A stretch of DNA of 6,523 bases from Candidatus Vogelbacteria bacterium. Its GTDB lineage: Bacteria > Patescibacteriota > Minisyncoccia > Phycocordibacterales > XYD1-FULL-46-19. The notes beneath the pieces are model-generated. The model made no database searches. It was not told where the DNA came from and saw only the letters and a program-made list of their open reading frames with translations. The stretch spans positions 1-6,523 of the forward strand of contig CAIKBK010000102.1 of assembly GCA_903825615.1 (NCBI GenBank). The letters run 5' to 3'. Each line of letters opens with the position of its first letter. Position 1 is the first letter of the stretch. Shown one piece after another: positions 622-3,528 of this stretch. A program made the position numbers and the translations under genes.

Positions 622-906
622 TTACTTTTGCGGAGGCCAAGGGATGGGGTTTCTTATGGCTACGGGCAAGTTGCGATAAGCGTGTTCAGTGTCAGTAATC
701 TTTGCCTTTCCCTCGTTTTGTTCAGTGAGGACCTCATTCATCTTGTCTCTAGAGACAACTCCCATCAAGACAATAATGCTTCCGAACCCAAGTTTGTCCC
801 AGCCCTCTTCCTCTCTTTGTCGGCGTAACGCCTCCACAATAACATCTTCGGTTAAGAGGCCTTTTTGTTGAAGAATTGCCCCCAAAAGATTAGCCTTGTT
901 TGCCAT
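622..906 (-). CDS. small stand-alone MshEN-like (type II secretion ATPase N-domain-like) protein
   Basis: A 94-residue soluble protein with two tandem copies of a pattern typical of the MshEN / GspE N-terminal fold. Copy 1 has Gly9, Gly16, Leu27 and Gln30. Copy 2 has Gly42, Gly49, Leu60 and Gln63. The spacing is identical in both (7 residues between glycines, 21 from first Gly to Gln). In characterised MshEN domains such motifs can bind cyclic di-GMP, and in larger proteins the domain sits in front of a secretion or pilus ATPase. Here no ATPase domain follows, and the Arg that normally opens each motif (RLG) is replaced by Leu7 and Gly40, so nucleotide binding is doubtful. The tail after about residue 70 is proline-rich (IPWPPQK) and probably unstructured. 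The ATG at 904-906 is fixed by a strong AGGAGG eight bases upstream. The gene is transcribed divergently from the HTH-ATPase pair. The family call rests on pattern recognition only; a function is not assigned. Confidence 0.75.
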   Translation of the reverse strand: MANKANLLGAILQQKGLLTEDVIVEALRRQREEEGWDKLGFGSIIVLMGVVSRDKMNEVLTEQNEGKAKITDTEHAYRNLPVAIRNPIPWPPQK

Positions 907-1104
907 TGCGGTATCCTCCTGTTGAGTTGCTCTGTCTATTCATATAGTGCCTCAACCTCTCAATTTTGCAAGTCATCTTACCTCAGGGGGTATTAGCCTA
1001 GGTCTTGACTTTTATACCAAAATATGATAGGACTAGAGCGGAATTGTAGCATTGAAATGGGTAAAACAAGGTATAACCAACCAGAAAGAAAGGCAGGTGC
1101 TAGG
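907..1104. promoter_or_regulatory. divergent intergenic control region
   Basis: These roughly 200 bases separate the leftward MshEN-like gene from the rightward HTH-ATPase pair and should hold promoters for both. Rightward, TTGACT (1005-1010) is a near-consensus -35 box, but the base run 17 bases later (TAGGAC, 1028-1033) is a poor -10. TATGAT (1023-1028) is a good -10 but lacks a well-placed partner. Leftward, TTGCAA (971-966) with ACTATA (948-943) at 17 bases is weak. A 7-base inverted repeat, TTATACC (1012-1018) and GGTATAA (1070-1076), brackets the rightward start region, and GTTGAG/CTCAAC (921-926, 951-956) forms a second short inverted repeat. Either could be an operator for the adjacent HTH protein, but both are short enough to arise by chance. 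Confidence 0.4.
915..920 (-). promoter_or_regulatory. strong Shine-Dalgarno of the MshEN-like gene
   Basis: The minus strand reads AGGAGG with eight bases to the ATG. This is a consensus ribosome binding site. It is notable because nusA, tig and clpP in this window have none. Confidence 0.85.
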
Positions 1105-1782
1105 ATGAAAACAGTTGATGCTCTCAAGAGCTATTTGGCTTCTGATCATTTTGATCCTAAGTCGGTGGCGGAGGTGGCGGGAGTAGGGGTGGACGCGGTC
1201 CATCGTTGGAAGAAGAAGGGCCGGGTCCCAATCGGGGAGATTCTCCTCAGGGTCCGTTTCCTTCTATTCTACGTCGGCTACCAAGTCGACGAATTGAGTC
1301 AGTTGCCGAAGGATTTGTTCCTGGCCGCTGAAGCTGTGGCGTTGCGCTTGGTTCTCATGAAGTGGATTGCCGACTTGCTTGGCTTGACCGAAGACTCGGC
1401 TCGTCGGGTATTATTAGGCAGTCGCGAGACCCAACCTGACAACATCGAACAAGTCGTCACTTGGTACCACGAACAGGGAATGGAAGATTTCGTGGAGGAA
1501 GGCCGGGAGAAGATGAAAAAAATTCTCGGCGTAGCAGGTGCTCCCTTGGCCTGTGATGCCGGGGGTCACCAACAATTCATCGTTTCAGCGGTGGCCAACC
1601 TGAAGGCGCTCGAGTATTTCACTGCTCGTCTGGAAACGGACGAGTTCACGGAAGAGGAAAGACAACTCTTCAGAGACTTGGGCCACGAAAGAGTCATGCG
1701 AGTTGCAAATCAACTGTTCCGTCTGACCAGTAAAACGTCAAGACAGGAACTAATGCGGAAAGAAGGAGAAAAGGCGCTATGA
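1105..1782 (+). CDS. tandem helix-turn-helix protein, probable DNA-binding regulator
   Basis: A 225-residue, largely helical protein of no family I can name. Residues about 19-42 (SVAEVAGVGVDAVHRWKKKG) read as a helix-turn-helix with a basic recognition helix, followed by a helical segment ending GYQVDEL. Residues about 87-106 (IADLLGLTEDSARRVLLG) look like a second, diverged HTH in a repeat of the same layout. The remainder (about 155-210) is predicted helical, with no cysteine cluster, catalytic motif or membrane segment. The reading frame is open from an ATG at 1024. I prefer the ATG at 1105 because an AGG (1095-1097) sits seven bases upstream of it, HTH homology starts soon after, and the 1024 codon overlaps a possible -10 box. 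The last bases overlap the ATPase start (ATGA), so the two are translationally coupled. Likely role, by inference: recruiting the ATPase to DNA and/or repressing its own divergent promoter. Confidence 0.8.
   Translation: MKTVDALKSYLASDHFDPKSVAEVAGVGVDAVHRWKKKGRVPIGEILLRVRFLLFYVGYQVDELSQLPKDLFLAAEAVALRLVLMKWIADLLGLTEDSARRVLLGSRETQPDNIEQVVTWYHEQGMEDFVEEGREKMKKILGVAGAPLACDAGGHQQFIVSAVANLKALEYFTARLETDEFTEEERQLFRDLGHERVMRVANQLFRLTSKTSRQELMRKEGEKAL
1763..1768 (+). promoter_or_regulatory. Shine-Dalgarno of the GHKL ATPase gene
   Basis: AAGGAG lies ten bases before the ATG at 1779, inside the end of the HTH gene. Together with the ATGA overlap it supports this start and coupled translation of the pair. 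Confidence 0.75.
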
Positions 1783-3449
1783 CCACAACCAAAAAGACCG
1801 CAACCGGCGGTCGGAGCAAACTCCGGTTTCACCACGGCACAGCGCTCCGGCGCATTGCCGACATGTACCCAACCCTCGCCGATATGCTTCTGGAGGAAGT
1901 CCAGAACGCGATCGATGCGGGTGCCACCCGTATCAGCATTTCGGTCAATCAAAAGACCGGGTTCATCACCATCTCCGACAACGGCGATGGCGCGACGATC
2001 GCGAAGTTCGAGAAGGCACTGCAGTCCATCTGCGTGTCGATCAAGGATGCCGGGAAATTCGGCCGGTTCGGAATCGGTCTTATCTCCCCGCTCGGGAAGT
2101 GCAAACGGTTCCGCTTCATCTCGTCGTCCCAAGAGGATGGTGGGGTGTATCGGGAATGGGATTTCGTCAGCGACGCTATCTGCAAGAAAGAAGTCATTGA
2201 CTCGATCCCCTACAAGACCCGACCCGATCTGACTTTCCGCCAGGAAGGCAAGTCGGGCGGAGTTCCCTGGCGCACCATGGTGCAGATCGAGGGGTTCACA
2301 AGCGAGCGGGTTGTCGCCAAGATGAGTCCCGAGTCGCTCGGGGTTGATATCGTCGATCGTTACGGCGTAGTGATGCGTCGCAACAAAGTGACGGTGTCGA
2401 TCGAGTTGGTCGACAAGGACGGCAACAAGCACGCCAAAGAAATACGGGCCACGCAGTGGTCTGGAGCCGAGTTGCCCGAGGTGTTGATTCACGACAGTGA
2501 TGCCGGGGCGACCAAGTTCCGTCTCTACCACGCCCGTCGCACGGCGATGGGTCGCAAGGGTAAGGTGTTGGTCGGAGAATCGAACGACGATTTCCGGATC
2601 GACTTCAGGACCTTCGCGGCTGGCGCTGGAGATCTTCTGCCGAAGGAGGTAGTGGATATCCTGACCTCGGGAATTTTCGAAGGCGAGATCTTAACGAGTA
2701 AGGCGAAGATTCACGTTACGCGTCGCTCGTTCAACACCGACATCTCCTTGGTTGGCTTCTGCTCGGCCATTGAGCAGTGGTACAAGGGCACGGGCAAGAA
2801 CCTGTACAAGATGATCGCGAGTGAGCGGCGCGACGAACGAAATCAGGCCCTCGGCCTGCGCTCGCTCATGGTCCTTGAAGGGCTCTTCCGTAATCCGGAG
2901 AACGATTTCCTTCGGGAGTTGTTCAAACGGATCCAGGTCGGTTCGATTGGCGCAGGTCATACCCCGATTGCCAAGAAGAAAGTGATCGGCCTTGAGAAAG
3001 ATAATTCGCTCTCGACGCAAGGCCAGGGCAAGAAAGACGGGAAAGGTGGCAGTGGTGGCGGTGGTGCCTCCGAGAAAGAAAAGGATGACCATCACCCAAT
3101 TACCGTCACTGGTCCGTCCGGGCGTCAGCGCAAAGCCGTACGCTCGAACTCGCTTGGTCTGCGCATCTCGCATGACCAGATCAAGGGCAGTGATGCCCTT
3201 TGGACCTTCGACAAGGAAACAGGGACGTTGTTCTTCAACACCTTGCACCCGGCTTGGGCTCGGTGCGAGGGGTCGGACGGCGACCTCATGCGCTTGCAGG
3301 AAGCAGTGGCGATTCAGGCCCTGGTCCTCCAGACGATGCCAGAGGACATGATGGTCCAGGCTGAGCTCTACCAAGCTCAGTTGGTCTGGCCAACCGTCTT
3401 CCTCATCAAAGAGGCGGACAAGTTGGCCGGTCGTCGCAAGACGTACTAG
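1779..3449 (+). CDS. GHKL/HATPase-fold (Hsp90/MutL/MORC-like) ATP-binding protein
   Basis: A 556-residue cytoplasmic protein with an intact Bergerat-fold ATP site. The N-box is Glu39, Asn43 and Asp46 in LEEVQNAIDAGAT, the layout seen in MutL with the general-base Glu four before the Mg-binding Asn. The G1 motif is DNGDG (67-71). The G2 lid motif is GKFGRFGIGL (92-101), closest in look to Hsp90 and related ATPases. No histidine-kinase dimerisation helix, membrane segment or receiver domain is visible. Residues about 165-330 probably form a second alpha/beta (transducer-like) domain, and 330-400 are helical. A hydrophilic Gly/Lys-rich linker (about 413-438) leads to a C-terminal domain (about 445-556) that I do not recognise; no MutL metal-binding endonuclease motif is evident. 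GHKL ATPases of this general type act as ATP-driven clamps in chaperones, mismatch repair, topoisomerase VI and bacterial MORC-like proteins linked to restriction systems. The substrate here is unknown. Base composition is clearly richer in G+C than tig. It ends in TAG, followed by a strong terminator. Confidence 0.85.
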   Translation: MTTTKKTATGGRSKLRFHHGTALRRIADMYPTLADMLLEEVQNAIDAGATRISISVNQKTGFITISDNGDGATIAKFEKALQSICVSIKDAGKFGRFGIGLISPLGKCKRFRFISSSQEDGGVYREWDFVSDAICKKEVIDSIPYKTRPDLTFRQEGKSGGVPWRTMVQIEGFTSERVVAKMSPESLGVDIVDRYGVVMRRNKVTVSIELVDKDGNKHAKEIRATQWSGAELPEVLIHDSDAGATKFRLYHARRTAMGRKGKVLVGESNDDFRIDFRTFAAGAGDLLPKEVVDILTSGIFEGEILTSKAKIHVTRRSFNTDISLVGFCSAIEQWYKGTGKNLYKMIASERRDERNQALGLRSLMVLEGLFRNPENDFLRELFKRIQVGSIGAGHTPIAKKKVIGLEKDNSLSTQGQGKKDGKGGSGGGGASEKEKDDHHPITVTGPSGRQRKAVRSNSLGLRISHDQIKGSDALWTFDKETGTLFFNTLHPAWARCEGSDGDLMRLQEAVAIQALVLQTMPEDMMVQAELYQAQLVWPTVFLIKEADKLAGRRKTY

Positions 3450-3479
3450 TAAGCAGTGTTTTACCCACAGTTCACAACC

Positions 3480-3528
3480 AAGTCCCCGGCGCCAGTTAGG
3501 CGACGGGGACTTCATTAGTTATTTTTTT
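3480..3528 (+). terminator. intrinsic terminator of the HTH-ATPase operon
   Basis: AAGTCCCCG (3480-3488) pairs with CGGGGACTT (3504-3512). After a G/A mismatch, CGCC (3490-3493) pairs with GGCG (3499-3502) around a five-base loop. The plus strand continues into a T-rich tail (seven T's at 3522-3528, then more). It begins 31 bases after the ATPase stop, and its T-tract overlaps the stop codon of tig, which converges from the other strand. On the minus strand the stem is preceded by an A-run but not followed by a T-run, so it should work mainly rightward. Confidence 0.85.

Follow-up and report, generated by a model that had tools for sequence, protein, structure and literature searches.

A tandem helix-turn-helix protein paired with a GHKL-S5 ATPase in Patescibacteria: a candidate mobile clamp cassette

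The window analysed here, a stretch of 6,523 nucleotides that makes up the whole of contig C102 in a Candidatus Vogelbacteria genome (578 kb in 117 contigs, about 93% complete), carries two overlapping genes that encode a tandem helix-turn-helix (HTH) protein and a GHKL-type ATPase. The two belong together well beyond this contig: an HTH gene adjoins the ATPase gene in all 18 loci of the core family, upstream in 17 of them and downstream in one (L041). Sequence and comparison support this pairing, an ATP site with nothing lost, a predicted fold like that of MutL and MORC, and a tig–clpP junction that is empty in relatives. They also support the rarity of the pair, the faster change of its HTH protein, an ATPase gene that is much less diverged than its neighbours between two of the genomes, and the exchange of the ATPase for a ParB-like protein in other loci. 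We give a probability of about 0.5 to the reading that the pair is a mobile cassette, in which an HTH protein and a DNA clamp act on foreign DNA.

The pair and its two proteins

The core loci were taken from genome contigs (9 loci), viral contigs (one true relative among four) and sampled whole genomes, and came to 18, the window included, after duplicates had been merged (L006 = G520, L007 = G311). Whole-genome sampling was limited to the window's phylum; the genome-contig scan covered all phyla with one short pattern. Excluded from the pairing count were L042–L044, distant GHKL proteins that lack the HTH gene, and 100 of 104 genomes from the phylum scan, with a best E value of 1e-12 or weaker. 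A six-frame search was needed in L003, L010, L055 and L056, where long antisense or overlapping open reading frames (ORFs) mask the HTH gene. Seven of the 18 loci (L003, L010 and L055–L059) stand outside the profile that detected their HTH genes, and with leave-one-out profiles the HTH gene came first among all ORFs in every locus, most weakly in G366 (E 6.5e-6) and at E 2.7e-31 among the 32 ORFs of the window. The conserved pairing that an earlier sequence-only reading of this DNA had proposed was thus found throughout the core family, and the ATGA by which that reading had the two genes overlap is in place (Table 1); the same 4-nt overlap (spacing −4 nt) occurs in 8 of the 17 loci measured. 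A search of ten ATPase-bearing genomes found a single HTH match in each, beside the ATPase. Pairwise identities among the HTH proteins track those among the ATPases (Mantel r 0.82, 0 of 5000 permutations, n = 17), and in 136 of 136 pairs it is the HTH protein that has diverged further.

The HTH protein of the window was modelled with a predicted local distance difference test score (pLDDT) of 91; its C-terminal hairpin, LSNLLNRLCSERAR-like in many relatives, may be a contact to a second HTH protein or to the ATPase. As to the family at large, a 324-aa relative (P0094) comes from a source record that names Verrucomicrobiae, and the HTH protein of G366 (L049 7262–8236), a genome placed in the window's phylum, is also 324 aa long. 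Among the ATPases, that of G396 is interrupted by a contig end, and that of G006 has its N-terminal part in another frame (L047 11276–11401), from a frameshift or an assembly error.

The ATPase matches Pfam HATPase_c_3 at E 9.6e-12 (45.5 bits, cut-off 25), and the Bergerat motifs, namely the E/N/D helix, DxGxG and the GxxGxG lid, do not vary in any of the 47 relatives aligned (E39, N43, D46, D67, G69, G71, G95, G98 and G100). By its sequence, therefore, it is a member of the GHKL superfamily with all ATP motifs intact, the complete Bergerat-fold enzyme that had been claimed for it. The features of the GHKL-S5 group (MutL/MORC/paraMORC-like) are present: an S5-type transducer, carrying the family motif SGxFEGEI at 297–304, directly follows the GHKL domain, and has a conserved basic residue, the invariant R315, possibly an arginine finger. 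The predicted fold (pLDDT 86.7) is closest to MutL and MORC, both top by Z in structure comparison. The matches listed by Foldseek were all of the Hsp90 family, but an Hsp90 identity was set aside because whole-length alignments gave a root-mean-square deviation near 16. Residues H394, H438, R451, N487 and H490 are conserved in the C-terminal domain; comparison of residues 380–556 with the sequences of solved structures gave nothing significant (best E 0.54), and Pfam gave no match to the domain.

No named housekeeping or defence family was matched with confidence: NCBIfam equivalogs scored 11.2 bits against a cut-off of 371 for HtpG, 28.5 against 180 for MutL, and 22.9 against 850 for MzaB of the MZA anti-phage system. 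The homologue search with the ATPase collected 90 proteins, itself included, and the family they outline is, as judged from these sequences, Patescibacteria-centred and unnamed. Single-sequence scans of the genome-contig and viral-contig sets found no relative, whereas profile scans did find some. No precedent for the HTH–ATPase pair turned up in a partial survey of the literature, which does not establish its absence from print.

Table 1. Positions of the features in the window, and of the small TFSL/GWRA proteins in other loci
Feature	Position	Strand	Basis
Tandem-HTH (XRE-like) protein, 225 aa, predicted targeting/DNA-binding subunit	1105..1782	+	ORF, homologues, profile, model
First XRE-like HTH unit, residues 1–60	1105..1284	+	
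Second XRE-like HTH unit, residues 61–144	1285..1536	+	
C-terminal helical hairpin of HTH protein, residues 154–224	1564..1776	+	homologues and model
AAGGAG, Shine-Dalgarno-like, within HTH gene, 10 nt 5′ of ATPase ATG	1763..1768	+	read directly
ATGA, stop of HTH gene and start of ATPase gene	1779..1782	+	sequence
GHKL-S5 ATPase, 556 aa	1779..3449	+	Pfam HATPase_c_3, model
GHKL (Bergerat) ATP-binding domain, residues 19–171	1833..2291	+	alignment and model
S5-type transducer domain, residues 184–315	2328..2723	+	model, structure search, alignment
Long helix of ATPase, residues 322–371	2742..2891	+	model
C-terminal beta domain and helical end of ATPase, residues 387–550	2937..3428	+	model and alignment
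Stem-loop (14-nt stem-loop, inverted repeat) between convergent ATPase and tig genes	3480..3512	.	inverted-repeat search
Interval gained at tig–clpP junction, outer limits approximate	907..3526	.	comparison with relatives
Small TFSL/GWRA protein, 78–118 aa	L057 3820–4176, L002 5475–5786, L056 596–880		
Small TFSL/GWRA protein, 78–118 aa	L101 7235–7471, L102 4738–5034, L104 9302–9541		

Rarity, insertion sites and exchange

At E 1e-20 or better, the phylum sample yielded ATPase matches in 4 of 379 genomes, the sample from the window's class in 5 of 383, and that from the class to which G311 belongs in 3 of 294, where one match is a contig-edge fragment; the samples overlap. The pair is thus rare and patchy, at about 1% of sampled Patescibacteria genomes. 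In the window it is flanked on the minus strand by clpP, a 94-aa ORF of MshEN type, tig and nusA, and has a G+C content of 50–58%, with 38–53% in the flanks; the stem-loop beyond the ATPase gene is probably a terminator that serves both this gene and tig. In the relatives G955, G248 and G132, no more than about 65 bp separates tig from clpP, with no pair in between, and in G902 one 80-aa ORF stands there alone. A tblastn search at 1e-3 did not match the 80-aa ORF to the 94-aa ORF of the window, but direct comparison gave 29% identity over 76 residues (E 0.003), and the two are probably the same gene, present before the gain, so that what was gained at tig–clpP would be the pair alone. Repeated loss of the pair there is a less simple alternative. 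Terminal repeats of the insertion were sought, and the repeat families shown held just short, chance-like ones. The 94-aa protein itself (622–906, minus strand) matches the NCBIfam c-di-GMP-binding MshEN motif at E 4.9e-10.

A second site recurs in Saccharibacteria: in L048 and L050 the pair separates groEL from a conserved 194-aa gene, in L008 it does so in inverted orientation, and in L010 it follows groEL; in pair-less relatives, groEL adjoins the 194-aa gene in three of the five fetched, and the gene was undetected in the other two. A functional link with groEL was considered and rejected, the simpler explanation being one Saccharibacteria insertion site with the pair inverted in L008. The groEL side of L010, where about 6.5 kb of other genes (8702–15232), a DUF4143 AAA protein included, separate the pair from the 194-aa gene, looks like an insertion hot spot. 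Elsewhere the pair was found near lepA, uvrA or RNase R. In L058 (10872–12441), a tyrosine recombinase gene begins 9 nt downstream of the ATPase gene and is followed by a CHC2 zinc-finger (primase-type) gene; this stretch may belong to an integrated element.

The cassettes also seem to exchange parts. Between L048 and L050, the ATPase gene has a synonymous divergence (dS) of 0.70 and is mostly 75–89% identical in nucleotides, whereas groEL has a dS of 3.67 at 63–77% identity, the HTH gene is diverged beyond the computing of dS (43–64% identity), and the downstream sequence is below 50%. The simplest reading of an ATPase gene so much less diverged than both its partner and groEL is that it was exchanged apart from the HTH gene.

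Partner exchange and the proposed clamp

With the HTH profile, 7 of the 383 genomes searched in the class and 4 of the 361 searched in the phylum gave a match, and three of these, G829, G752 and G050, have no ATPase match. Their HTH gene is followed by a gene for a 78–98-aa protein and then by one for a 265–302-aa protein with a DGRHR motif, two of the three latter being 47% identical over 253 residues. A profile of the three matched ParB (4umk, positions 3–85) at E 1.6e-4 and sulfiredoxin at E 0.026, its best row being the repeat protein 8vd6 (E 4.2e-5), which is probably spurious; TIGR00180 matched one of them at E 9.5e-4, under its curated cut-off. What follows DGRHR is unlike the canonical ParB box III. 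The alternative second component likely has a ParB/Srx fold. A scan of viral contigs with the ParB-like profile found two loci, L105 and L106 (both IMG/VR), and in L105 the HTH gene comes directly before the ParB-like gene and overlaps it by 4 nt. Profiles built from the ATPase partners alone detect the ParB-type HTH genes at E 8.6e-24 to 1.6e-36, first in rank in each locus, and a ParB-like protein is present in four of the four HTH loci that lack the ATPase. One HTH family thus appears to go with two unrelated nucleotide-switch folds. The small third protein, marked by TFSL...GWRA, occurs in three of the four ParB-type loci. A profile made from two ParB-type members also found it in three core ATPase loci out of 18 (E 4e-7 to 6e-5): its gene comes immediately before the HTH gene in L002 and L056 and lies farther off in L057. 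The window showed no sign of it, and the two members scanned had no NCBIfam match.

In the mechanism proposed here, the tandem-HTH protein would select DNA sites by binding to them and would contact the GHKL-S5 ATPase and load it at the chosen site, where ATP binding would dimerise the ATPase around the DNA as in MutL, MORC or Hsp90. The ParB-like protein would be its functional substitute, a clamp gated by cytidine triphosphate (CTP) or another nucleoside triphosphate, and the target would be foreign DNA, phage or plasmid, which would be silenced or blocked. A part in conflicts over mobile DNA, whether between mobile DNA and the host or between mobile elements, would agree with the patchy and recombining cassettes, with their presence on contigs classed as viral, and with the methylase genes beside distant relatives. 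The broader version, that a rapidly changing HTH "address" protein runs two unrelated nucleotide-gated clamps interchangeably, sometimes with the small TFSL/GWRA protein, and that Patescibacteria and viruses trade these cassettes against competing DNA, is held tentatively, at a little less than even odds.

Several observations weigh against a clamp acting on foreign DNA. PADLOC gave no system-level match, and together with NCBIfam yielded GHKL background only. Among 50 chosen neighbouring proteins of core loci, those matched by Pfam are mostly housekeeping, a DNA methylase occurs in L055 only, about 1.8 kb off, and the core cassette itself includes no nuclease, helicase or methylase; the distribution is patchy, with empty sites, but the core family was not generally found among defence or restriction genes. 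No PHROG match was found for the ten proteins of L041, which leaves its viral origin unsupported, and the ParB-like relative of L106 (7998–8771) has no detected HTH neighbour. That a small regulatory protein changes faster is common and need not reflect an arms race, and the HTH fold matches in structure comparison are weak, so that DNA binding by this protein is a prediction only. The clamp role of the ParB-like protein is likewise presumptive, as proteins of this fold also have non-clamp jobs, sulfiredoxin and SerK among them (PMC12704722).

The distant GHKL proteins weigh on the same side. They are of similar size to the core ATPases and score 29–54 bits with the profile, against at least 76 for the core, whose lowest value is that of a contig-end fragment, and the HTH gene was found in none of nine fetched stretches of 7.8–13 kb (L109–L117, extra copies of G006 and G210 included) and none of 26 short loci (L015–L040); nor did any of these, which lie behind the strongest of the weaker ATPase hits, contain a match to the ParB-like or small protein. 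Three of the nine (L109, L110 and L113) share similarity with the core ATPase in the C-terminal domain and are for this reason real distant relatives rather than merely common GHKL cores; the ATPases of L109 and L110 are 81% identical, with the same neighbouring genes. Homologues without the HTH partner, whose predominance would have counted against the sequence-only reading, therefore exist only at this distance, and the pairing marks the core family. In four of the nine (L111, L112, L116 and L117), a cytosine-methylase-like gene, so named from a DLFxGxGG-type motif judged by eye, lies directly upstream of the ATPase gene; these genes are mutually homologous (BLASTP E 1e-26 or better), and two of the four ATPases are about 547 aa long with an N-terminal extension. 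The nearest relatives of the core family thus look like restriction-linked, paraMORC-like loci in Patescibacteria, and the methylase-like genes point to a restriction-linked ancestry.

The main rival explanation, unlikely in our estimate, is that the cassette looks after the upkeep or control (partition, copy, lysogeny) of phages, plasmids or integrated elements and was left in or traded between Patescibacteria chromosomes, in which case the clamp would work for the element and not for the defence of the host. The ParB-like partner, an XRE-like HTH fold as in phage repressors, the IMG/VR contigs L041 and L105, the latter with a partial head-protein match, and the recombinase and zinc-finger genes beside the L058 pair all suit it. 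Yet most copies stand among housekeeping genes, the window seemingly gained just the pair, the scan of 50 neighbours recognised no ParA, and tblastn with the window ATPase and one ParB-like protein had no hit at E 1e-5 among 72,556 records of plasmids and 50,697 of phages. A toxin–antitoxin-like pair, whose HTH protein would repress the operon and restrain an ATPase that is harmful once released, is quite improbable: a small HTH gene in first place, the frequent 4-nt overlap, a mobile two-gene cassette and a faster-changing first gene are what it would predict, but no toxic domain was recognised in the partner, a large ATPase of several domains, the alternative loci have a second component of another fold, and the HTH protein has two HTH units in its model and exceeds typical antitoxins in size.

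More doubtful again is a proteostasis or stress module of an Hsp90-like ATPase and its dedicated HTH regulator, linked to chaperone and protease operons. The place of the window pair between tig and clpP, the Foldseek matches, and the adjacency of groEL in four of six Saccharibacteria loci (L006, L007, L008 and L010, but not the 6-kb contig L009 or L059) speak for it; the inversion of the pair relative to groEL in L008 means that they share no operon, the other sites, the poor Hsp90 superposition and the HtpG score argue against a chaperone, and a ParB-like substitute would be hard to explain for one. Least probable of all is a reduced paraMORC or mismatch-repair-like module for DNA repair on the host chromosome, which shares the MutL/MORC-like fold and sequence but is at odds with so rare a gene pair, with empty sites in relatives, with the MutL score, and with a cassette in which no nuclease, helicase or MutS partner was recognised.

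Patescibacteria genomes are very small, and a two-gene system kept in them as recombining mobile cargo therefore says something about the costs that such cells have to meet. Should the clamp reading be true, the swap between GHKL and ParB-like proteins beside one HTH family suggests that selection favours a site-loaded, nucleotide-gated DNA ring and not a particular enzyme.

Comparison with known systems

Close among described systems are the restriction-linked paraMORC 1–5 families of Iyer et al. 2008 (PMC2292703), which share with the window ATPase an N-terminal GHKL domain with all motifs, an S5 domain, a C-terminal extension of their own and a sporadic distribution; the methylase-like neighbours of the distant Patescibacteria relatives add to the likeness. 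Their operons carry a superfamily II (SFII) helicase, DNA methylase or restriction nuclease; four of the nine distant relatives have such a gene, its motif judged by eye, whereas the window has none, the core partner being a tandem-HTH protein, and no nuclease or TIR domain was recognised at the C terminus of the ATPase. A PD-(D/E)xK or DUF4263 nuclease at that end marks paraMORC3 and Shedu I-D; Pfam and the sequence comparison with solved structures gave no significant match to either in the C-terminal domain. From the MORC family, prokaryotic and eukaryotic, it differs in the S5 signature GhXhhpXXRhl, which a regular expression found in 0 of 47 rows, and from proteins with the MutL N-terminal domain in that no MutL C-terminal domain was recognised and the score falls far under the equivalog cut-offs. 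With MzaB and TmtA (NCBIfam and PADLOC libraries) it has the GHKL N-terminal region in common, the TmtA match covering 75 residues of a 1486-position profile.

The alternative component resembles, by its DGRHR motif and its match to 4umk, the CTP clamps ParB, Noc and KorB and the ParB-CTPase fold; ParB is a CTP-gated DNA clamp, and the wider fold binds other nucleotides too (PMC12704722). It differs from them in that no parA was seen and the ParB-like gene follows a separate tandem-HTH gene. For a role in defence, a parallel is Shedu type I-D (VcSduA; PMC12137116), which is an anti-phage protein with a GHKL ATPase, present in about 1% of genomes, and which has a fused DUF4263 nuclease, of which there was no Pfam match in the window ATPase; the GHKL protein is needed there for protection against phage. 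MORC2 clamps and compacts DNA with ATP (PMC12216690), and if the clamp reading holds, the HTH–ATPase pair would offer a testable idea on nuclease-free defence or silencing and a possible prokaryotic parallel to silencing by MORC.

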